Assembly (NCBI GenBank): GCA_015063985.1
Contig: SVTC01000001.1
Location: 108,311-172,310, forward strand
Direction of reading: 5' to 3'
Origin: Oscillospiraceae bacterium
GTDB lineage: Bacteria; Bacillota; Clostridia; Oscillospirales; SIG627
DNA: 64,000 nucleotides
Each line of letters starts with the position of its first letter. Positions within the stretch are counted from its first letter, which is position 1. Position numbers and translations under genes: made by a program. Under the pieces are notes generated by a model. That model was not told the origin of the DNA. It was given only the letters and a program-made list of their open reading frames with translations, and ran no database searches. Of the stretch, positions 11,411-64,000 are shown piece after piece.

Positions 11411-14400
11411 ATGAAGAAACTGTTAAGTGTAGTGCTGGCAGTGCTTATGGTAATGTCCCTTGCGACATACGCAGTTAGCGCAGCTATCACTCCCACCGAC
11501 GGTTGGTACAGGTCCTATGTTGGCGATGTGCTTGCAATAACCTCTGCGGAAGATTTTATTGCATTCCTTTCCACTGCTCAGGACTTTGCCGGCAAAACAG
11601 TAGTTCTCGCTAATGACATTACTCTGAATACGGGTGATGCCGCATCCTGGGAATCTGCTGCTCCCGAAAACTCTATTCCCGAAAAGGGCTCCTTCAGAGG
11701 TGTCTTTGACGGACAGGGTCACACCATCAGCGGTTTTTACGGCAACAATATCTTTGCTACCTTGGGCGGCACCGTTAAAAACCTCAAGGTCGTTAATTCC
11801 TACCTCAGCGGCGACGGTGCTGCTATTGTAGGTCAGGTCAACGCTCAGTCTACCATCAAGAATTGCTACTTTGACCTTGTGGTCAGAGGTACAAGCAGTA
11901 ACTGTGCCGGCATAGTCGGTCAGATGGTTGCAGATCTCACTATCGAGAACGTATGGCTCGATGGCGATGTCGTCAGCACAGGTGCTTACTCCAGCGGATT
12001 TGTAGGCAATCAGGAATCTAACGATCTGGTTATCACCGATAGCTACAACACCGCAAACGTTACCGCAAACGGTCAGCATACAGCAGGCTTCTCGGCAGCT
12101 GTTTATGCAGGTACTCTTACGATGACAAACTGCGTCAATGCAGGTACTATCATCAATAAGAGCGGCGACGTTACCACTCCTGCAGGTGCTCTTACCTTCA
12201 CAGTAGGTTCCAGCTCTGCTCCCGGAACTCTCACTACAACAAAGTGCTACGTTCTTAAGGGCAGCGCACTTCCCGACACTCTCTTTACCAGAAGTGCTTC
12301 CGTTGTTAACGGCGGAACAACCGGTAACGATACCGGCGTTGTTGCAAACGTTGCAAGCGTATACGAGGCTGCAGACCTTGGTACCGTAGCTGCAGATCTT
12401 GGCAGCAAGTGGTCTGTAAGTGATGGCAAGCTTGTTCTTGATATCCCCGCTGACAGCGATGTTATCATTATAAAAGATTGGGCAGGCCTCACCGCATGGG
12501 CAGCAGACACTTCCGACAATGCAGGAAAGACAGTAGTTCTTGCTGCGGATATCACCGCTCCCGCAGATGCAACCTGGACCGCAAAGTCTACCTTTGCAGG
12601 TACATTTGAAGGCAACGGCAAGACCATCAGCGGTCTTAATGGCGCTCAGGGTCTCATCGCTAAGATGACCGCAGGCGAGATCAAGAATCTCTCTATTGAT
12701 GCAACCATCAGCTCCACCGCAGGCGCTGTCGCTATTTTCGTTGGCAAGATGGAAGGCGACATTAAGCTTACCAACTGCTATGCAGGCGGTAGCGTTACCA
12801 GCACAACCAACAACGTTGCTGCATTCATCGGCGACGGTACCAAGCAGTACACTGCGACCATTACCGGATGCTGGAACGATGCTGACGTAAACACAGGTGC
12901 AAGATATGCTTCCGGTTTCGTTGGAAACCAGGAATCCTGCACAGTTGTTATCACTGATTCTCTTAACACCGGTTCCGTAAACGGCGATGCAACTAACGGT
13001 AACCAGGCAGGCTTCTCCGAGTCCGTTTACAACGGCAAGCTCACCATTACCAACGCTCTTAACCTTGGAACTATCACCTATGACAAGGCTGCTCCCAAAA
13101 CAGGCTTTGCATTCACCAGAACTCTCCGTAGGGGCTCTGTAACAGTTCTCACCAACTGCTTCAACCTCACCGGAGCTGCCGATTCCAATACCTATGAGCT
13201 TCAGGCAGCCGATGCTACTAACGCTAACGCTACACTCAACGGTAAGGATCTCAATGCAACCGCAGATGAGCTTGCAGCTATCGTAACCGATATCACCGAT
13301 GCAGATTATGCAGCTACTCTCACCGCTCTCGGTGCAAACTGGGATAAGTATTGGCTCGATCACGAGAAATTTATTCCCGTTCCCGCAGAATTTGCAAACG
13401 ATAATCCCGGCAACCCCAACGAGATCCAGATCTCTTCTTGGGCAGAGCTCGTAGCATGGGCATCCTCCACCGATGACAACTACGGCAAGACTGTCGTTCT
13501 TACAAAAGACATCGTTGCTGAAGCAGATTGGGCTCCCAAGGCCGTTTTCTGTGGCGACTTTGACGGTAAGGGATACTCTATCAGCGGTCTTAAGGGCACT
13601 GCATTCATCAATAAGATGAACGGCGGCTCCATTAAGAACCTCAGCCTTCTTAACGGCGAATTTACCACTGCATCCTTCGTATGCGAAGTAAGAGAAACCA
13701 CTTCATTTGAAAATCTTTACTCCAACTGTACAATTAAGTTCAGTGGAGCTTCCAGAGGCGGTCTTATTGCTATGATCAGTGATACCACCAGTGTTTCCAC
13801 CATCAACAACTGCTGGTACGACGGTGAGATCATTCACACCGTAGCAGCACCCGAAGGAAACGACGGCAGATACGTAGGCGGTATCATCGGTAACTGCAAT
13901 GCCGCTCCCAAGATCACCGTTACCAACTGTCTCAACACTGCAGACATTACCTCCAATTCTACTAACGACAATCCTTACGTCGGCGGTATAGTAGCTTCCA
14001 ACTACAACGGTGCAACCGCTATCTCTAACTGCGTAAACCTCGGAAAGGTAACTGTTGCAAGCAAGGGGCACGCTATTTTCCGTAACGCTCACAAGCTCAA
14101 CGAGGGCTGCAGCGTAGAGGTTAAGAACTGCTTCTATCTTGAAGGCAGCGCAGTGATCGGCGCAAGCGCAGAGCATGCCGAGAACACTGCTGTTACCTAT
14201 AAGGCAGAGGCAACAGCTATCAAGGCAACTGATTACGAAACAACTCTCACCGCTCTCGGTGCGGATTGGGGCAAGTATTGGGTAGACTTTGAGAGCTACA
14301 TCCCCGTTCCTGCTGTATTTGCAAACGTACAGCCCACCGATCCCAACGCATATATGATCAGCACTAAGGCAGAGCTCCTCGAGTGGGCAGCTAACCCCAA

Positions 14401-15610
14401 CGCTGACAAGTATGCAGGAAAGACCATTACTCTCGGTGCTGATATCGTTCTTAACGACGGTAAGGCTTCCGAGTGGTTTGAGGGTGAAGTTCCCGCTGAA
14501 AAGTGGAGCTCTGTTGAAGGCTTCTCCGGCAAGTTCAACGGAAACGGCTTCTCTATCAGCGGTATCTACGATGACGTGGCTCCCGCAGGCTTCTTCGGAA
14601 AGGTTCTCAGCGGCGCAGAGATTAAGAATCTCAGCATTCTCAACTCCTACTTCAAGGGTACTTCTCACGTAGGTTCTCTTGCAGCTGATCTTGAAAACGT
14701 TACAGTTGAAAACGTTTATAGCGATGCTTACGTTGTTACCGAAAACAGCGCAGGCGGTATCATAGGCGGACTTGCAGCTGATAAGAATGGCAAGGTTACC
14801 GCAACGATCACCTCTTGTTGGTTCGACGGTACCGTATCCGCAAGCGGTCTCTATGCTTCCGGTATCCTCGGCAACCAGGAATCCAACCATGCAGTTCTTA
14901 CCGACTGTCTTAACACCGGTTCTGTCAGTGCTAACAGCAATACCGCAGGTATCTCCACCGCAGTATACGAGGGCTCCATCGTCGCAACCCGTTGCGTAAA
15001 CCTCGGATCTGTTAAGCAGGGAGACAAGCTGGGTCAGGCTATTGCATTTACCATTGGTTCTTCTGCTAACCCCGCATCCAAGGAATGTGTATTCACCGAT
15101 TGCTTCGGCTTGAAGGGCGCATCCGATCTTAATCCTGCTGACGTTAGAAATGACTCTGTAGTAAAGGGCACCGTTAAGGGCCTTGAAGCAACCAACGATC
15201 TCGAGAAGCTTGTTCCTCTCAGCGGTTACTGGAAGATGGAGGGAGAGATCCCCGTTCCCGTATACTTCGCAGGTGACAATGCTACCGATATCCCTGCTGA
15301 GGCTCCTTCCTCCAGCAGCTCCTCTGTAGCAGCATCTTCCTCCAGCGCAGCAGCATCCAGCTCCTCTTCTGTAGCAGCTTCCTCCTCCAGTGTGGCAGCA
15401 TCCAGCAGCAGTGTAGCTCCTTCTGTAAGCGCATCCGCAAGTGCAAGTGCAAGCGCATCTGCAAGTGCAAGTGCATCCGCTTCCACTGCAGCACCCACCT
15501 CCACTGCAGTAATCACCGCTGACAGCGCGTTCACCGTGCTCATGGTCGTTGCGGTTATCCTCAGTGCAGGCGCATTCGCAGTAATTTCTAAGGCTCGCTC
15601 CAGAGCTTAA
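11411..15610 (+). CDS. Large secreted repeat protein with four beta-helix (GLUG-like) modules, Ser/Ala stalk and C-terminal membrane anchor
   Basis: Probable cell-surface adhesin or S-layer-like protein; precise role unknown. 1399 residues: signal peptide about 1-25 (MKKLLSVVLAVLMVMS...VSA), four homologous modules of about 310 residues, a low-complexity stalk of Ser/Ala/Val ending in repeated SA, and a final hydrophobic helix followed by SKARSRA. Each module opens with a WAxLxxWA-type helix and GKTVVLxxDI, carries FxGNGxxISG, and closes with IPVPxxFA. Codon choice is unlike the neighbours (heavy AAC, CTC, TTC), as in very highly expressed genes. Its promoter and terminator are strong. Related to the 53189-54685 product. 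Confidence 0.8.
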   Translation: MKKLLSVVLAVLMVMSLATYAVSAAITPTDGWYRSYVGDVLAITSAEDFIAFLSTAQDFAGKTVVLANDITLNTGDAASWESAAPENSIPEKGSFRGVFDGQGHTISGFYGNNIFATLGGTVKNLKVVNSYLSGDGAAIVGQVNAQSTIKNCYFDLVVRGTSSNCAGIVGQMVADLTIENVWLDGDVVSTGAYSSGFVGNQESNDLVITDSYNTANVTANGQHTAGFSAAVYAGTLTMTNCVNAGTIINKSGDVTTPAGALTFTVGSSSAPGTLTTTKCYVLKGSALPDTLFTRSASVVNGGTTGNDTGVVANVASVYEAADLGTVAADLGSKWSVSDGKLVLDIPADSDVIIIKDWAGLTAWAADTSDNAGKTVVLAADITAPADATWTAKSTFAGTFEGNGKTISGLNGAQGLIAKMTAGEIKNLSIDATISSTAGAVAIFVGKMEGDIKLTNCYAGGSVTSTTNNVAAFIGDGTKQYTATITGCWNDADVNTGARYASGFVGNQESCTVVITDSLNTGSVNGDATNGNQAGFSESVYNGKLTITNALNLGTITYDKAAPKTGFAFTRTLRRGSVTVLTNCFNLTGAADSNTYELQAADATNANATLNGKDLNATADELAAIVTDITDADYAATLTALGANWDKYWLDHEKFIPVPAEFANDNPGNPNEIQISSWAELVAWASSTDDNYGKTVVLTKDIVAEADWAPKAVFCGDFDGKGYSISGLKGTAFINKMNGGSIKNLSLLNGEFTTASFVCEVRETTSFENLYSNCTIKFSGASRGGLIAMISDTTSVSTINNCWYDGEIIHTVAAPEGNDGRYVGGIIGNCNAAPKITVTNCLNTADITSNSTNDNPYVGGIVASNYNGATAISNCVNLGKVTVASKGHAIFRNAHKLNEGCSVEVKNCFYLEGSAVIGASAEHAENTAVTYKAEATAIKATDYETTLTALGADWGKYWVDFESYIPVPAVFANVQPTDPNAYMISTKAELLEWAANPNADKYAGKTITLGADIVLNDGKASEWFEGEVPAEKWSSVEGFSGKFNGNGFSISGIYDDVAPAGFFGKVLSGAEIKNLSILNSYFKGTSHVGSLAADLENVTVENVYSDAYVVTENSAGGIIGGLAADKNGKVTATITSCWFDGTVSASGLYASGILGNQESNHAVLTDCLNTGSVSANSNTAGISTAVYEGSIVATRCVNLGSVKQGDKLGQAIAFTIGSSANPASKECVFTDCFGLKGASDLNPADVRNDSVVKGTVKGLEATNDLEKLVPLSGYWKMEGEIPVPVYFAGDNATDIPAEAPSSSSSSVAASSSSAAASSSSSVAASSSSVAASSSSVAPSVSASASASASASASASASASTAAPTSTAVITADSAFTVLMVVAVILSAGAFAVISKARSRA
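11534..15283 (+). repeat. Four tandem in-frame modules in the large surface protein
   Basis: Module boundaries estimated from the recurring opening and closing motifs: about 11534-12460, 12461-13420, 13424-14350 and 14351-15283. The modules are homologous but well diverged at DNA level. Confidence 0.7.
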
Positions 15611-15626
15611 GACTTAACAGTTTCAA

Positions 15627-15661
15627 AAGAGCGCACCCCTCGGGGTGCGCTCTTACTTTTT
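15627..15661 (+). terminator. Intrinsic terminator of the large surface protein gene
   Basis: 13-bp stem AAGAGCGCACCCC / GGGGTGCGCTCTT followed by ACTTTTTT, 16 nt after the stop codon. Confidence 0.93.
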
Positions 15662-15722
15662 TGAAAAAAGGTGGAACCACTTACTTTTTTGAAAAAAAGT
15701 AAGCAAAAAACTTTTAATTTCG
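15651..15722 (-). repeat. Dispersed intergenic A/T-rich repeat, copy 1
   Basis: The complement contains AAAAGTTTTTTGCTTAC followed by TTTTTTTCAAAAA, shared with two copies at 56028-56070 and 56124-56166. A partial tandem duplicate of the CTTACTTTTTTGAAAAAA part begins 28 nt earlier, inside the terminator tail. No coding potential. Confidence 0.7.
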
Positions 15723-15865
15723 ATAGAGTCTCTACAAACAAAGCGGTCGATGCTTTACTATGTGTAAATTTACCTGTAGTTTTGAAAAATGTGGTGCTAA
15801 ATGCTTTTATTATCGATTAAAATCAATATAAATAAGTCGTTTTCTCGGATAACGCAACACTTCTA

Positions 15866-15894
15866 TTGACTCATTCGGAAACTTGTGTTATACT
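15866..15894 (+). promoter_or_regulatory. Orphan consensus promoter upstream of the candidate ncRNA
   Basis: TTGACT (15866-15871), 17-nt spacer, TATACT (15889-15894), with no credible coding sequence downstream before the convergent fhs gene. Confidence 0.7.
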
Positions 15895-15898
15895 ATCC

Positions 15899-16047
15899 GA
15901 GCCGAGTATTTCAGCGGCGGCGGTAGATGACATCTTTTTATGTGTACTACCAACGCTTCTCTGCTTGACAGAGTGCCGAGTTAAAGGCAAGCCGCCGATT
16001 GCTCGGTTCTTTATACATAAAAAAGCCTTCCTATTTCAGGAAGGCTT
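15899..16047 (+). ncRNA. Candidate structured non-coding RNA, family not recognised
   Basis: The predicted transcript begins 5 nt after a strong -10 box, exactly at the 5' arm of a closing stem: GAGCCGAG (15899-15906) pairs fully with CTCGGTTC (16002-16009). Inside, CGGCGGC pairs with GCCGCCG. The interior holds three hairpins: GGTAG/CTACC, CTCTG/CAGAG and TGCC/GGCA. A strong hairpin (16023-16047) shared with the fhs terminator may end it. The overlapping ORF-track entry has no ribosome site and starts within the promoter. It does not match the THF, TPP, purine, SAM, FMN, 4.5S or RNase P consensus elements I know; 6S RNA is not excluded. The rest of 15723-16065 holds nothing else I can support. 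Confidence 0.55.
16019..16047 (-). terminator. Terminator of the pyr-pur-fhs transcript
   Basis: 10-bp perfect stem AAGCCTTCCT / AGGAAGGCTT with A6 on the plus strand, giving T6 on the minus strand, 19 nt after the fhs stop. Confidence 0.9.
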
Positions 16048-16065
16048 AATTTATTATTCTGAGGA

Positions 16066-17742
16066 TTAAAACAGACCTGTTATCTTTCCGTTTTCGTCCA
16101 CGTCGATTCTCTCAGCGGCGGGAGATTTGGGAAGACCCGGCATGGTCATTATATCACCGGTAAGCACTACTACAAATCCGGCACCTGCGCTTACCCTTAC
16201 CGATTTCACGGTGACAGTGAAATCCTCGGGAGCACCAAGCTTTGTGGGATCGTCAGAGAAGGAATATTGAGTCTTTGCAACGCATATAGGAAGCTTATCA
16301 AAGCCCAGAGCCTTAAGCTCGTTTATCTGCTTTTGTGCGGCGGGAAGAATAGAAACTGCCTTACCGCCGTAGATCTTTTGAGTCAAAGCAAGTATCTTAT
16401 CCTCAATGGACTGATCCAGCTCATAGCTAAAGGTGAAGTCGCCCTTTTCCTCTTCGCAAAGACGAACTACCTCTCTTGCGAGAGCTTCGCCGCCCTTGGA
16501 GCCTTCTGCCCACACGGTGCTGAGAACGGTATTGACGCCCAACTCACGGCATTTCTCAATAATGAAGCTGATCTCATTATCGGTGTCGGTGGGGAAGCGG
16601 TTGACCGCGACCACGCAAGGAAGCTTATAAACTGTGGTAATGTTCTTGACGTGTCTGAGAAGGTTGGGAATACCTTTCTCAAGGGCATTAAGATCCTCTG
16701 TACCCAACTCTGTCTTTGCAAGACCTCCGTGCATCTTAAGGGCTCTGACGGTTGCCACTACCACAACTGCATCGGGAACAAGTCCCGCCATTCTGCATTT
16801 GATATCCAGGAACTTTTCTGCACCCAGATCTGCACCGAAGCCTGCCTCGGTAACGGTGTAATCGCCCATCTTAAGAGCGAGCTTTGTAGCCATTACGGAG
16901 TTACATCCGTGGGCTATATTTGCAAAGGGGCCGCCGTGTACAAAGGCGGGAGTGCCTTCAAGAGTCTGCACCAGATTAGGCTTGATAGCATCCTTCAAAA
17001 GCGCTGTCATTGCTCCCTGTGCCTTAAGCTGTGCGCAGGTGATGGGCTCGCCACTGTAGCTATATGCCACTATGATCCTGCCCAAACGTTCCTTAAGATC
17101 TGTTATAGAGCTTGCAAGGCACAAAACTGCCATGATCTCGCTGGCAACGGTAATATCAAAACCGTCCTCGCGAGGCATACCGTTGGCTTTTCCGCCCAAT
17201 CCGTCGATAACAAATCTTAACTGACGGTCGTTCATATCAACGCATCTTTTCCAGGTGATCCTTCTGGGATCTACGTTGAGAAGATTGCCCTGCTGGATAT
17301 GATTGTCCAGCATTGCGGCAAGAAGATTGTTTGCCGCGCCTATAGCGTGAAAATCTCCCGTGAAGTGAAGGTTGATATCCTCCATGGGAACTACCTGAGC
17401 ATATCCGCCGCCGGCAGCACCGCCCTTTACTCCGAACACAGGACCCAGGCTGGGCTCTCTGAGAGCCACTGTAACCTTCTTGCCTATCCTCTTCAAGCCG
17501 TCAGCCAGACCGATGGTGGTCGTGGTCTTGCCCTCACCCGCAGGGGTGGGGGTAATGGCAGTGACCAGGATAAGCTTTCCGTTTTCGTTTTTTGAGCTAT
17601 CGATCAATGCTGGATCGATCTTAGCCTTGTATTTTCCGTACTGTTCAACGTATTTCTCCTCAACTCCCGCAAGGCTCGCTATCTCTGTGATAGGCTTCAT
17701 TTTGCAAGCTTGAGCAATTTCGATATCAGACAAATAAGCCAT
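16066..17742 (-). CDS. fhs: Formate--tetrahydrofolate ligase (10-formyl-THF synthetase)
   Basis: ATP-dependent formation of 10-formyl-THF from formate and THF. The P-loop is [15 protein letters not shown], followed by [37 protein letters not shown] in which conserved family residues are intact. 558 residues, normal for the family. It is the last gene of the pyr-pur run, 11 nt after purL with AAGGAG upstream. The position fits its job: 10-formyl-THF is the formyl donor for PurN and PurH encoded in the same transcript. It could also serve one-carbon or acetogenic metabolism, but the local context points to purine synthesis. Confidence 0.97.
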
Positions 17743-48067: not shown

Positions 48068-48535
48068 ATGATAAGAATGGCACTGGAAAAGGATATACCA
48101 AAGCTTGGAGATCTTCTTGAGCAGGTGGATCTTGTCCATCACAGGGGCAGACCCGATATATTCAAGGTCGGCAGAAAATATTCCGATAGCGAGCTTTTTG
48201 AGCTTTTAAAGGACGGTAGCCGCCCCATACTTGTTTCCGTGGATGAAAATGATGTTGTTATGGGCTACTGCTTTTGCATTTATCAGCAGCATTTTAACAA
48301 CTCTGTTCTTACCGATATAAAGACCTTGTATATCGACGACCTTTGCGTTGATGAAAAAATGCGGGGAAGGCACGTCGGTAAGGAGCTTTACGAGGCGGCG
48401 GTGGAGCTTGCAAAAAAAAGCGGCTGCTATAACCTTACACTCAATGTTTGGAGCTGTAACCCCTCCGCTATGGGCTTCTATGAGGCACAAGGACTCCTGC
48501 CCCAGAAGGTGGGTATGGAGCTGATATTGAAATAA
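48068..48535 (+). CDS. GNAT family N-acetyltransferase, last gene of the aro operon
   Basis: Acetyl-CoA-dependent N-acetyltransferase of unknown substrate. The core motif A is DLCVDEKMRGRHVGKELYEAA and motif B lies around NLTLNVWSCNPSAMGFYEAQGL. 155 residues. The start at MIRMALE (48068) has GGAGG 8 nt upstream. It is 13 nt after tyrA with no promoter between, so it is co-transcribed with Phe/Tyr synthesis. A role on aromatic amines or amino acids is possible but not shown. Confidence 0.85.
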   Translation: MIRMALEKDIPKLGDLLEQVDLVHHRGRPDIFKVGRKYSDSELFELLKDGSRPILVSVDENDVVMGYCFCIYQQHFNNSVLTDIKTLYIDDLCVDEKMRGRHVGKELYEAAVELAKKSGCYNLTLNVWSCNPSAMGFYEAQGLLPQKVGMELILK

Positions 48536-48549
48536 AAAAAGCGCTCGAA

Positions 48550-48580
48550 GAGGCACACTCCGTAAAGAAGTGTGCCTCAG
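48550..48580 (+). terminator. Hairpin at the end of the aro operon
   Basis: Perfect stem GAGGCACACT / AGTGTGCCTC 14 nt after the GNAT stop. The following bases (AGTTATATT) make a poor U-tract and are already the first core of the palindrome array, so termination efficiency is uncertain. Confidence 0.55.
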
Positions 48581-48706
48581 TTATATTCGCCTATCGGCGA
48601 GTGATATTGCTTCGCAGTGGTATTTGGACTAAGTCCAAGTGATATTCGCTTCGCGAGTTTTATGGCGAATATAATATCACTGTGAGACCTGTCTCACAAT
48701 ATCACT
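48579..48706. repeat. Palindrome array A: six 9-mer cores separated by small unique palindromes
   Basis: Direct cores AGTTATATT, AGTGATATT, AGTGGTATT, AGTGATATT start at 48579, 48600, 48616 and 48638. Two inverted cores AATATCACT start at 48673 and 48698. Between cores lie small palindromes: CGCCTATCGGCG, GCTTCGC, TGGACTAAGTCCA, CGCTTCGCG and GTGAGACCTGTCTCAC. TATATTCGCC (48582) is also complementary to GGCGAATATA (48664). No coding potential. Same plan as the array at 63860-64000 with a different core. Confidence 0.8.
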
Positions 48707-48756
48707 TATTATTTTTATCTTTGAGATAGGTGTAATTTTAAAGTATGTAACCCACT

Positions 48757-48783
48757 ATGACACTTTCAAACCGAAAGTGTCAT
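48757..48783 (+). terminator. Strong intergenic hairpin between aro and fol operons
   Basis: 11-bp perfect stem ATGACACTTTC / GAAAGTGTCAT followed on the plus strand by ATTTTATAT. It may be the effective terminator of the aro operon, located beyond the array. Confidence 0.6.
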
Positions 48784-48794
48784 ATTTTATATAA

Positions 48795-48837
48795 AAAGAA
48801 AATTGGGAGAACACTTCTTTACGAAGCGTCTCCCAAG
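48795..48837 (-). terminator. Terminator of folT-folC
   Basis: Stem TTGGGAGA / TCTCCCAA with an inner CTTC/GAAG, followed on the minus strand by TTTTCTTTTT, 11 nt after the folC stop. Confidence 0.8.
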
Positions 48838-48847
48838 GGAGCTTTTT

Positions 48848-50119
48848 TCAGTGTTTTTTCAGTGAGTCTATTACCTCGGAATACATATACAGCGAGCCTA
48901 AGCAAAGCAGGGCTCGGTTTTCTTTTTTTGCCTCCGAAACGGCTTTTTTTACCGCCTCGTCCACGGTATCGAAGCCTTCGGCGCATATATCGTTTTCTCT
49001 GAAGACCTTTGCGTACTCCTCTGCCTTGAGGCTTCGGGGGTTGTCGGGAGTGATGCAGAACACCTTTGAGGCTATGCCGCTTATTTTTTTTGCCATGTAG
49101 CGATAGTCCTTGTCTGCCATAACGCCCGTTAAGACCAGGAGCTTTTCGTTTTTAAAGTAGAGCTTGGTGCTTTCCACGGCGGCATCTATTCCCTGGGGAT
49201 TGTGACCACCGTCACAGATCACGATTGGGGAGTCCTGCACCTTCTCGTATCTTGCGTGCCATACCGTTGAGGCTATTCCATCCTTTACGGCACTGTTGGA
49301 AATATCAAATCCTTTGACCTTGAGCAGCTTTATTGCGGCAAGGACGTTTTCAAGATTGTTCACCTGATAGCTTCCGAGAAGGGGGAGAGTTATTTCGCCA
49401 AGCTCCTCGGACCTTAAGGTGGTATGGCTGAGCTCAAAGGAGATAGGCGTAAGCTCGCTTCTGTTGGGAATATGCATCCTTGCATTTTCCGCTTTTGCCT
49501 TTTCTCTTATGACTCCTTCGGCTTCGGGGCTGTCTCCGCACCAGAGCAGATCACAGCCTTCTTTTATGATTCCCGCTTTTTCTGCGGCGATCTTTTCCTC
49601 GGTGTCGCCCAAAAAGGCAGCGTGATCTATGGCAATGCCCGTTATTACTCCGAGAAGGGGAGAGGGGATGACGTTGGTGGAGTCCAGCCTTCCGCCCATT
49701 CCGCACTCCAGCACCACTACGTCGCATTCCTCTTGGCTGAAATAGTCCATCGCAAGAGCGGTGATGAGCTCGAATTCCGTGGGATGGTCCTCCATCTTCT
49801 CGGCGAGAGGACGTATTTTTTCGGTGAGTGCGGCAAGGGTATCGTCGGGAATATCATTTCCGTTTATCTTCATTCTTTCGTTGAAGCGCAGAATATAGGG
49901 AGAGGTGTACGTGCCAACCTTGTACCCCGCTTTTGTGAGCACGGAGGAGAGCATAGAGCAAAAGGAGCCCTTTCCGTTTGTGCCCGCCACGTGTATGAAC
50001 CTCAGCTTGCTCTGAGGGTCACCCAAGGCCTTTAAAAGCTCACGGGTCCTGGAAAGCCCGGGCTTCGAGCCCTGCCAACAGTTTTTGTGGATGTACTCCA
50101 AGGCTTGTAGGTAGTTCAT
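48848..50119 (-). CDS. folC: Folylpolyglutamate synthase/dihydrofolate synthase
   Basis: Mur-ligase-fold enzyme adding glutamates to folates, retaining them in the cell. FIHVAGTNGKGSFCSML is the P-loop, YTSPYILRFNERMKING and ECGMGGRLDSTN follow, and VICDGGHNPQGIDAA marks the C-terminal domain. 423 residues. The start is MNYLQALEY (50119) with AAAGGAG upstream; the 110-residue track extension comes from the antisense side of folT and is rejected. It overlaps folT by 4 nt. No folP/folK lies nearby, consistent with a salvage unit. Confidence 0.94.
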   Translation of the reverse strand: MNYLQALEYIHKNCWQGSKPGLSRTRELLKALGDPQSKLRFIHVAGTNGKGSFCSMLSSVLTKAGYKVGTYTSPYILRFNERMKINGNDIPDDTLAALTEKIRPLAEKMEDHPTEFELITALAMDYFSQEECDVVVLECGMGGRLDSTNVIPSPLLGVITGIAIDHAAFLGDTEEKIAAEKAGIIKEGCDLLWCGDSPEAEGVIREKAKAENARMHIPNRSELTPISFELSHTTLRSEELGEITLPLLGSYQVNNLENVLAAIKLLKVKGFDISNSAVKDGIASTVWHARYEKVQDSPIVICDGGHNPQGIDAAVESTKLYFKNEKLLVLTGVMADKDYRYMAKKISGIASKVFCITPDNPRSLKAEEYAKVFRENDICAEGFDTVDEAVKKAVSEAKKENRALLCLGSLYMYSEVIDSLKKH

Positions 50120-50652
50120 TTTTTCTCCTTTGCGGTGATTTTTCCAAGCTCTTTTGTGAAGGCTTTGTTCTTGCCGAGAAAATATAACACTCCCGCCTCC
50201 GCAACGGCGGTGATAAGATATATTCCCGCTCTTAAAAGCAATGTGGCAAAAAAGGGCGAGCCGTAGAATATTACTATTCCCAGAGTCTTGAGCGCCACAG
50301 AGCCGATCAGGTGCCCTGCAAGGACTGCAAATACAGCCTTTGCCGCGGCGTGGTCCTTTGCACATTTTGCCGCTATTCCGCCGCAAAGCCCCACCGCTGC
50401 GGCTCCTAAGGTTATCAATGGGTTTATGGCATAGCCCACAAGAATGCATCCCACAAGGTCTGCCACGGTCGCTACCGCGGCGGCGGGGATGGGTCCTAAG
50501 TATATGGCGGCAATAAGTATCGGCAGATTCTCAAAGCTTATTCTGAAGCTTTGGGTTATGTTGATAGCCAGATACTTGCCCAGAATAATGCTCAGTGCCG
50601 CCAAAAGGGCACAAATGCTGATGTATATCAGCCCTTTTAAATTTTTGCTCAT
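50116..50652 (-). CDS. folT: Folate ECF transporter substrate-binding S component
   Basis: Integral membrane protein that captures folates and works with a shared energy-coupling module encoded elsewhere. 178 residues with about six hydrophobic helices; ENLPILIAAIYLGPIPAAAVATVADLVG is typical of FolT. The THF riboswitch directly upstream confirms the substrate class. The ribosome site AAAGGAGG lies 11 nt before ATG 50652 and can be sequestered by the leader. Confidence 0.92.
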   Translation of the reverse strand: MSKNLKGLIYISICALLAALSIILGKYLAINITQSFRISFENLPILIAAIYLGPIPAAAVATVADLVGCILVGYAINPLITLGAAAVGLCGGIAAKCAKDHAAAKAVFAVLAGHLIGSVALKTLGIVIFYGSPFFATLLLRAGIYLITAVAEAGVLYFLGKNKAFTKELGKITAKEKK

Positions 50653-50715: not shown

Positions 50716-50812
50716 GGCAGCGGGATGCGAAGCCTCGACCGCAAGAATACTTTTCGTCCGCCCGTCAACTCCCCGTACGAGGCGGCACTTAACGCCGATG
50801 CTTCTACTCTGC
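50716..50812 (-). ncRNA. Tetrahydrofolate (THF) riboswitch
   Basis: The minus-strand leader contains the conserved blocks AGAGTAGA, GCGTTAAGTGCC, GGGGAGTTG, GGACGAAAAG, TTGCGGT and CATCCCGCTGCC in the order of the known folT-associated THF aptamer. Paired ends GGCAGCGG / GCAGAGTAG-side helices close the pseudoknotted fold. It controls folT and folC. Confidence 0.93.
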
Positions 50813-50828
50813 TTATGAACGTATTCAT

Positions 50829-63790: not shown

Positions 63791-63802
63791 CCTTATAACG
63801 AC

Positions 63803-63851
63803 AGAAAGAGATAACAAATCGGTTCGTAGCCGAAATGTTATCTCTTTTTCT
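63803..63851 (+). terminator. Long bidirectional terminator hairpin after argG
   Basis: Stem AGAAAGAGATAACA / TGTTATCTCTTTTTCT with an inner TCGG/CCGA hairpin; T5 on the plus strand. It is immediately followed by palindrome array B. Confidence 0.75.
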
Positions 63852-63859
63852 GTTGGTTT

Positions 63860-64000
63860 AATGAAATCGTTGCGCGGCAACGATGAAATCTTCACTTCGT
63901 TCAGATGAAATCCAAGGACAAGTCCTCGGATGAAATCAAATCCGTCTAAATACAACCCTGCGAAGCGGGATTTCATCGCAAACGCGATTTCATCCACCGG
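63860..64000. repeat. Palindrome array B (runs off the window)
   Basis: Direct cores AATGAAATC, GATGAAATC, GATGAAATC, GATGAAATC start at 63860, 63882, 63904 and 63929; inverted cores GATTTCATC start at 63969 and 63986. Separators include palindromes GTTGCGCGGCAAC, AGGACAAGTCCT and TCGCAAACGCGA. Same plan as array A (four direct, a middle segment, two inverted) but a different 9-mer. No coding potential. Confidence 0.8.

Follow-up and report, generated by a model that had tools for sequence, protein, structure and literature searches.

What is encoded in the 455 bp that separate the gene for a large GLUG-repeat-like surface protein from fhs? This gap lies within the 64-kb stretch of DNA that was analysed as a whole (the window), with the GLUG-type gene as its left neighbour (11411-15610, + strand) and fhs as its right neighbour (16066-17742, − strand), and purL- and purD-like genes are found upstream of fhs on the same (−) strand, all three names being given by inspection. 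Each flanking gene has its own terminator, located at 15627-15654 for the GLUG-type gene and at 16047-16023 for fhs. The GLUG-type protein is 1399 aa long with a Ser-rich tail, and several diverged paralogues occur in its own genome and the sole congener, with almost none in the other relatives searched. The terminator of this gene is followed at 15652-15703 by nested palindromes rich in AT (CTTACTTTTTTGAAAAAAGGT / ACTTTTTTGAAAAAAAGTAAG). Our analysis suggests that the gap, in the genome of an uncultured gut bacterium, probably specifies a short RNA with a very stable fold and a start signal of its own. The evidence supports a promoter-headed, structured, non-coding element of no recognised family on the + strand; reading it as an orphan structured RNA headed by a promoter of its own is plausible and has partial support.

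The preliminary description of this DNA had proposed a TTGACT-N17-TATACT promoter leading into an 8-bp closing stem, with a 7-bp GC stem and three hairpins inside it. Both hexamers are present, at 15866-15871 (−35) and 15889-15894 (−10), separated by the 17-nt spacer and accompanied by an extended TG, making a predicted sigma-A-type promoter at 15866-15894 (+ strand) that matches 10 of 12 consensus positions. Transcription is predicted to start at about 15900-15901, where the closing stem begins. Promoter-like sites with at least 10 of 12 matches occur 31 times in 128 kb of strand, and so by our own arithmetic the chance of such a promoter being in register with the first base of the stem is roughly 0.002. 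Shuffled sequences also yield one promoter-like site in an 800-bp region; the significance lies not in the promoter alone but in its alignment with the first paired base. An imperfect inverted repeat of doubtful significance flanks the promoter, with a left arm at 15844-15860 (CTCGGATA-N4-AACAC, + strand) and a right arm at 15885-15901 (GTGTT-N4-TATCCGAG, + strand) that overlaps the −10 and the start. Its 13 fixed bases have two exact copies in the genome, both at this promoter, and each arm consists of two blocks one helical turn apart, an arrangement that would suit a DNA-binding regulator but is marginal against shuffles. We rejected the repeat as an operator or invertible promoter, as at least 13 of 17 matches were reached in 16 of 100 shuffles, and an ordinary inverton would need a spacer longer than the 24 bases present here.

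The structured core (15899-16009, + strand) consists of two stems, P1 and P2, and three hairpins, with a minimum energy of −49.9 kcal/mol, a z-score of −5.6 and most pair probabilities above 0.8. The 5′ strand of P1 (15899-15908) is flush with the predicted start and pairs with 16000-16009, giving 10 bp with two G-U pairs at minimum energy and, in a transcript from about 15900, the 8 bp originally described, with pair probabilities of 0.91-1.0. Starting at 15900 gives the same helices, almost all with probabilities above 0.8. A 6/2 internal loop separates P1 from P2, the 7-bp GC stem in which CGGCGGC (15915-15921) pairs with GCCGCCG (15991-15997). Above it are the three hairpins: H1 (15922-15951; GGTAG/CTACC with an inner ACAT/ATGT), H2 (15959-15973; CTCTG-CTTGA-CAGAG) and H3 (15974-15989; TGCC-GAGTTAAA-GGCA), all on the + strand. 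Predicted to be unpaired, and free to make contacts, are the segments UUUCAG and AACGCUU together with the loops CUUUUU, CUUGA and GAGUUAAA.

None of 200 dinucleotide shuffles was as stable as the core, and its energy is lower than that of all 1278 sampled 117-nt segments from both strands of the window (lowest −49.8 kcal/mol). Its z-score is near the extreme percentile, with about 1% of those segments having a z below −5, and most of the other low-z segments inspected resemble terminators, palindromic repeats or coding stretches. The + strand folds at −48.5 kcal/mol versus −42.4 kcal/mol for the − strand, a gap of about 6 kcal/mol due to the G-U pairs. The candidate has a GC content of 52% and its flanks have 30% and 29%; a GC-rich island between AT-rich flanks is the profile of structured RNA genes exploited by the GC-IGR approach (PMC11109978). 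Strong folds with similar z-scores also occur at several other places in the 64-kb window, including terminators and repeats. At 48501-48840 (− strand; z about −6), several palindromes are clustered between convergent genes and resemble a repeat array with terminators, and at 63801-63917 (− strand), palindromes of the GATTTCATCGTTGCCGCGCAACGATTTCAT type resemble a short palindromic repeat array and are followed by a strong hairpin.

Downstream of the core, a bidirectional terminator hairpin (16023-16047) has a strong U-tract for fhs and a weak one for the RNA: its − strand tail (TTTTTTATG) is good and its + strand tail (AATTTATTATT) is poor. On the candidate's own strand the hairpin is present and the U-tract is weak; it is plausible that the predicted RNA would terminate at 16023-16047, in a hairpin that chiefly serves fhs. 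Between P1 and this hairpin is a linker (16012-16023, TATACATAAAAA) that is complementary to the H1 loop segment at 15935-15946 (TTTTTATGTGTA), both on the + strand. The repeat search showed that the 12-nt H1 sequence UUUUUAUGUGUA could pair completely with the linker sequence UAUACAUAAAAA, with one G-U. The best duplex between core and linker has an energy of −10.6 kcal/mol, and shuffled linkers, in which the A-tract part needed by fhs for its own terminator was held fixed, had a mean of −5.1 kcal/mol with none of 500 as good. Such pairing would displace the inner H1 stem to form a pseudoknot, which we noticed post hoc and regard as possible.

Two further points of the preliminary description, that there is no credible open reading frame and that the family was not recognised, held up as well. 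The only frames are a TTG-started one of 67 codons that begins inside the promoter and others of 8-16 codons. One of the latter has 13 codons (MTSFYVYYQRFSA, 15927-15968), lies within H1 and H2, and has Phe or Tyr at 5 of its 13 codons; its ATG has no good Shine-Dalgarno sequence before it. No Rfam 15 family matches the locus at the gathering threshold, and the covariance search, 6S RNA included, gave no credible match even at E-values up to 10, only chance-level ones. The sole broad match over the RNA at that level was Phe_leader (15926-16053, + strand; E-value 1.5; 18.5 bits against a threshold of 55), and ARAGORN found no tRNA or tmRNA at the locus. The candidate resembles 6S RNA (RF00013) in being free-standing, structured and paired at both ends, but no 6S match was obtained here up to an E-value of 10. 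Furthermore, 6S RNA is a long bulged rod with a large central bubble and a model of 187 positions, whereas the candidate is a branched junction with three hairpins and about 110 nt. The probable 6S RNA of this genome lies elsewhere (contig C17, 21832-22024) and scores 32 bits against a cut-off of 46.4, which suggests that 6S RNA in the source lineage may be under-detected by the Rfam cut-off.

To look for relatives, we used a DNA search of 58 related genomes, in which the window itself was the only match, and a covariance model (R1) built from the candidate's single sequence, with a self-score of 150.7 bits. R1 gave no credible match in any of four overlapping sets: 196 relatives, the family (22 genomes, searched with laxer filters), the order (394 genomes) and the class (391 genomes). 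In its own genome the candidate is single copy. The best stray matches scored about 20 bits, and we judged the weak matches to be due to chance because every one inspected was placed in coding DNA or terminators. One of these (20.6 bits) had shared loop sequences and apparent compensatory changes, but is antisense within a homoserine dehydrogenase gene; nine others were inside long open frames or terminators, or straddled them. In phage and plasmid collections the matches were terminator-like or absent, and viral contig patterns gave no credible match. No positional counterpart was found beside fhs in 30 relatives or in 80 named genomes of uncultured Clostridia, Oscillospiraceae and Ruminococcaceae, mostly from the guts of ruminants and other herbivores, and the region next to fhs is not conserved among the relatives inspected.

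As a positive control, the same procedure was applied to a single-sequence model of the THF riboswitch in the window (50716-50813, − strand; 80.8 bits). This ordinary riboswitch lies upstream of two genes, one for a small membrane protein (50116-50652; by inspection, FolT-like) and one that is folylpolyglutamate-synthase-like. The control model matched 113 of the 196 genomes, compared with 135 of 196 for the full Rfam THF model. Because this matched control succeeded, the absence of the candidate from its relatives is informative, and the candidate is therefore not a widespread, conserved class; homologues with compensatory changes in related genomes, the mark of such a class, were not found while the control was positive. 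Two points temper this conclusion: THF aptamers are better conserved than most small RNAs, and coverage of the genus consists of one other genome, which is fragmented and also has no THF riboswitch match. The searches indicate that the candidate would be restricted to its own lineage, or evolving beyond recognition.

This restriction to one genome, with no conservation among the relatives searched, is also what would be expected if the gap were a chance stretch rich in inverted repeats, or a decayed mobile element, giving no stable transcript. The similar z-scores of several other stretches of the window point the same way. On the other hand, the multi-helix fold is single copy and unlike a simple hairpin repeat, its closing stem is in register with the promoter, the G-U pairs favour that same strand, and no transposase gene adjoins the candidate. 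We consider a non-functional origin unlikely, while still giving it some weight.

It is also possible that the locus is an orphaned leader or attenuator, in which the promoter, structured leader and terminator belonged to a + strand gene that was lost or moved by rearrangement, with the aromatic-rich 13-codon frame perhaps surviving from an amino-acid leader peptide. The order of elements, from promoter through folded leader to terminator, would fit, as would the five Phe/Tyr codons and a Phe_leader match on the + strand, albeit a chance-level one scoring far under its threshold. However, the ATG lacks a good Shine-Dalgarno sequence, fhs would need the terminator hairpin anyway, and no homologous leader was found in the relatives searched. 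There is also no + strand gene downstream, as the next genes, fhs and purL, lie on the − strand. The same-strand controlled gene expected downstream of a riboswitch or attenuator is thus not found, which makes a cis-regulatory role unlikely, and we hold the orphaned leader to be improbable. Least probable of all is a convergent cis-acting role, in which the 3′ end of the pyr-pur-fhs transcript would be tuned by transcription running into the common terminator or by antisense read-through into fhs. The head-to-head arrangement on one hairpin and the weak + strand U-tract would permit this, but a promoter alone would suffice without such an elaborate fold, and the relatives inspected do not share this layout downstream of fhs.

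With no known family and no related genome giving a match, the likeliest identity of the candidate is a small RNA specific to its lineage. We put the probability at about 0.55 that a structured small RNA of about 110-150 nt is made from a free-standing, lineage-restricted gene at this locus, acts in trans and ends at the hairpin shared with fhs. Counted against this small RNA gene are the lack of any relative with its sequence or structure, the weak + strand tail, the promoter-like match expected by chance per 800 bp and the strong folds elsewhere in the window. From what was computed (the fold and its stability, the promoter register, the preference for the + strand, and the failure to find the RNA among known families or in the relatives searched), we infer that the RNA would be expressed from the sigma-A-type promoter, starting at about 15900, and that its 5′ end would thereby be locked at once into P1 and protected there. 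P1 and P2 would hold a four-way junction bearing the three hairpins, the H1 loop may form a pseudoknot by docking on the 3′ linker, and transcription would stop at the hairpin common to the opposing, head-to-head fhs transcript. The RNA may then act in trans, either by its loops pairing with mRNAs or by protein binding. A more specific version, in which this is a new, taxonomically narrow type of compact four-way-junction RNA, with a 5′-terminal closing stem and an H1-linker pseudoknot, serving as an mRNA-independent sensor or protein-binding scaffold, is a long shot.

The candidate shares with free-standing bacterial small RNA genes a promoter, a non-coding unit of about 150 nt, a terminator hairpin and an intergenic site whose flanking genes each have their own terminator. 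The defining own promoter and folded non-coding body are both found here computationally. It differs from such genes in having no detected relatives and in being predicted from sequence only, and it is folded more elaborately than most mRNA-pairing small RNAs. It is also similar to the orphan motifs from GC-rich intergenic regions (PMC11109978) in being a folded GC-rich island in an AT-rich gap with no known family, although each named motif of that study has several aligned representatives and the candidate has one. Screens of this kind yield many unnamed candidates (PMC11109978), and the interest of this one is therefore modest; by itself it opens no long-standing question. If expressed, it would be one more lineage-restricted structured RNA among the orphan small RNAs that uncultured gut Clostridia carry, and a complex fold of which no relative can be detected would suit it to testing how RNAs of this kind originate or come to diverge past recognition.
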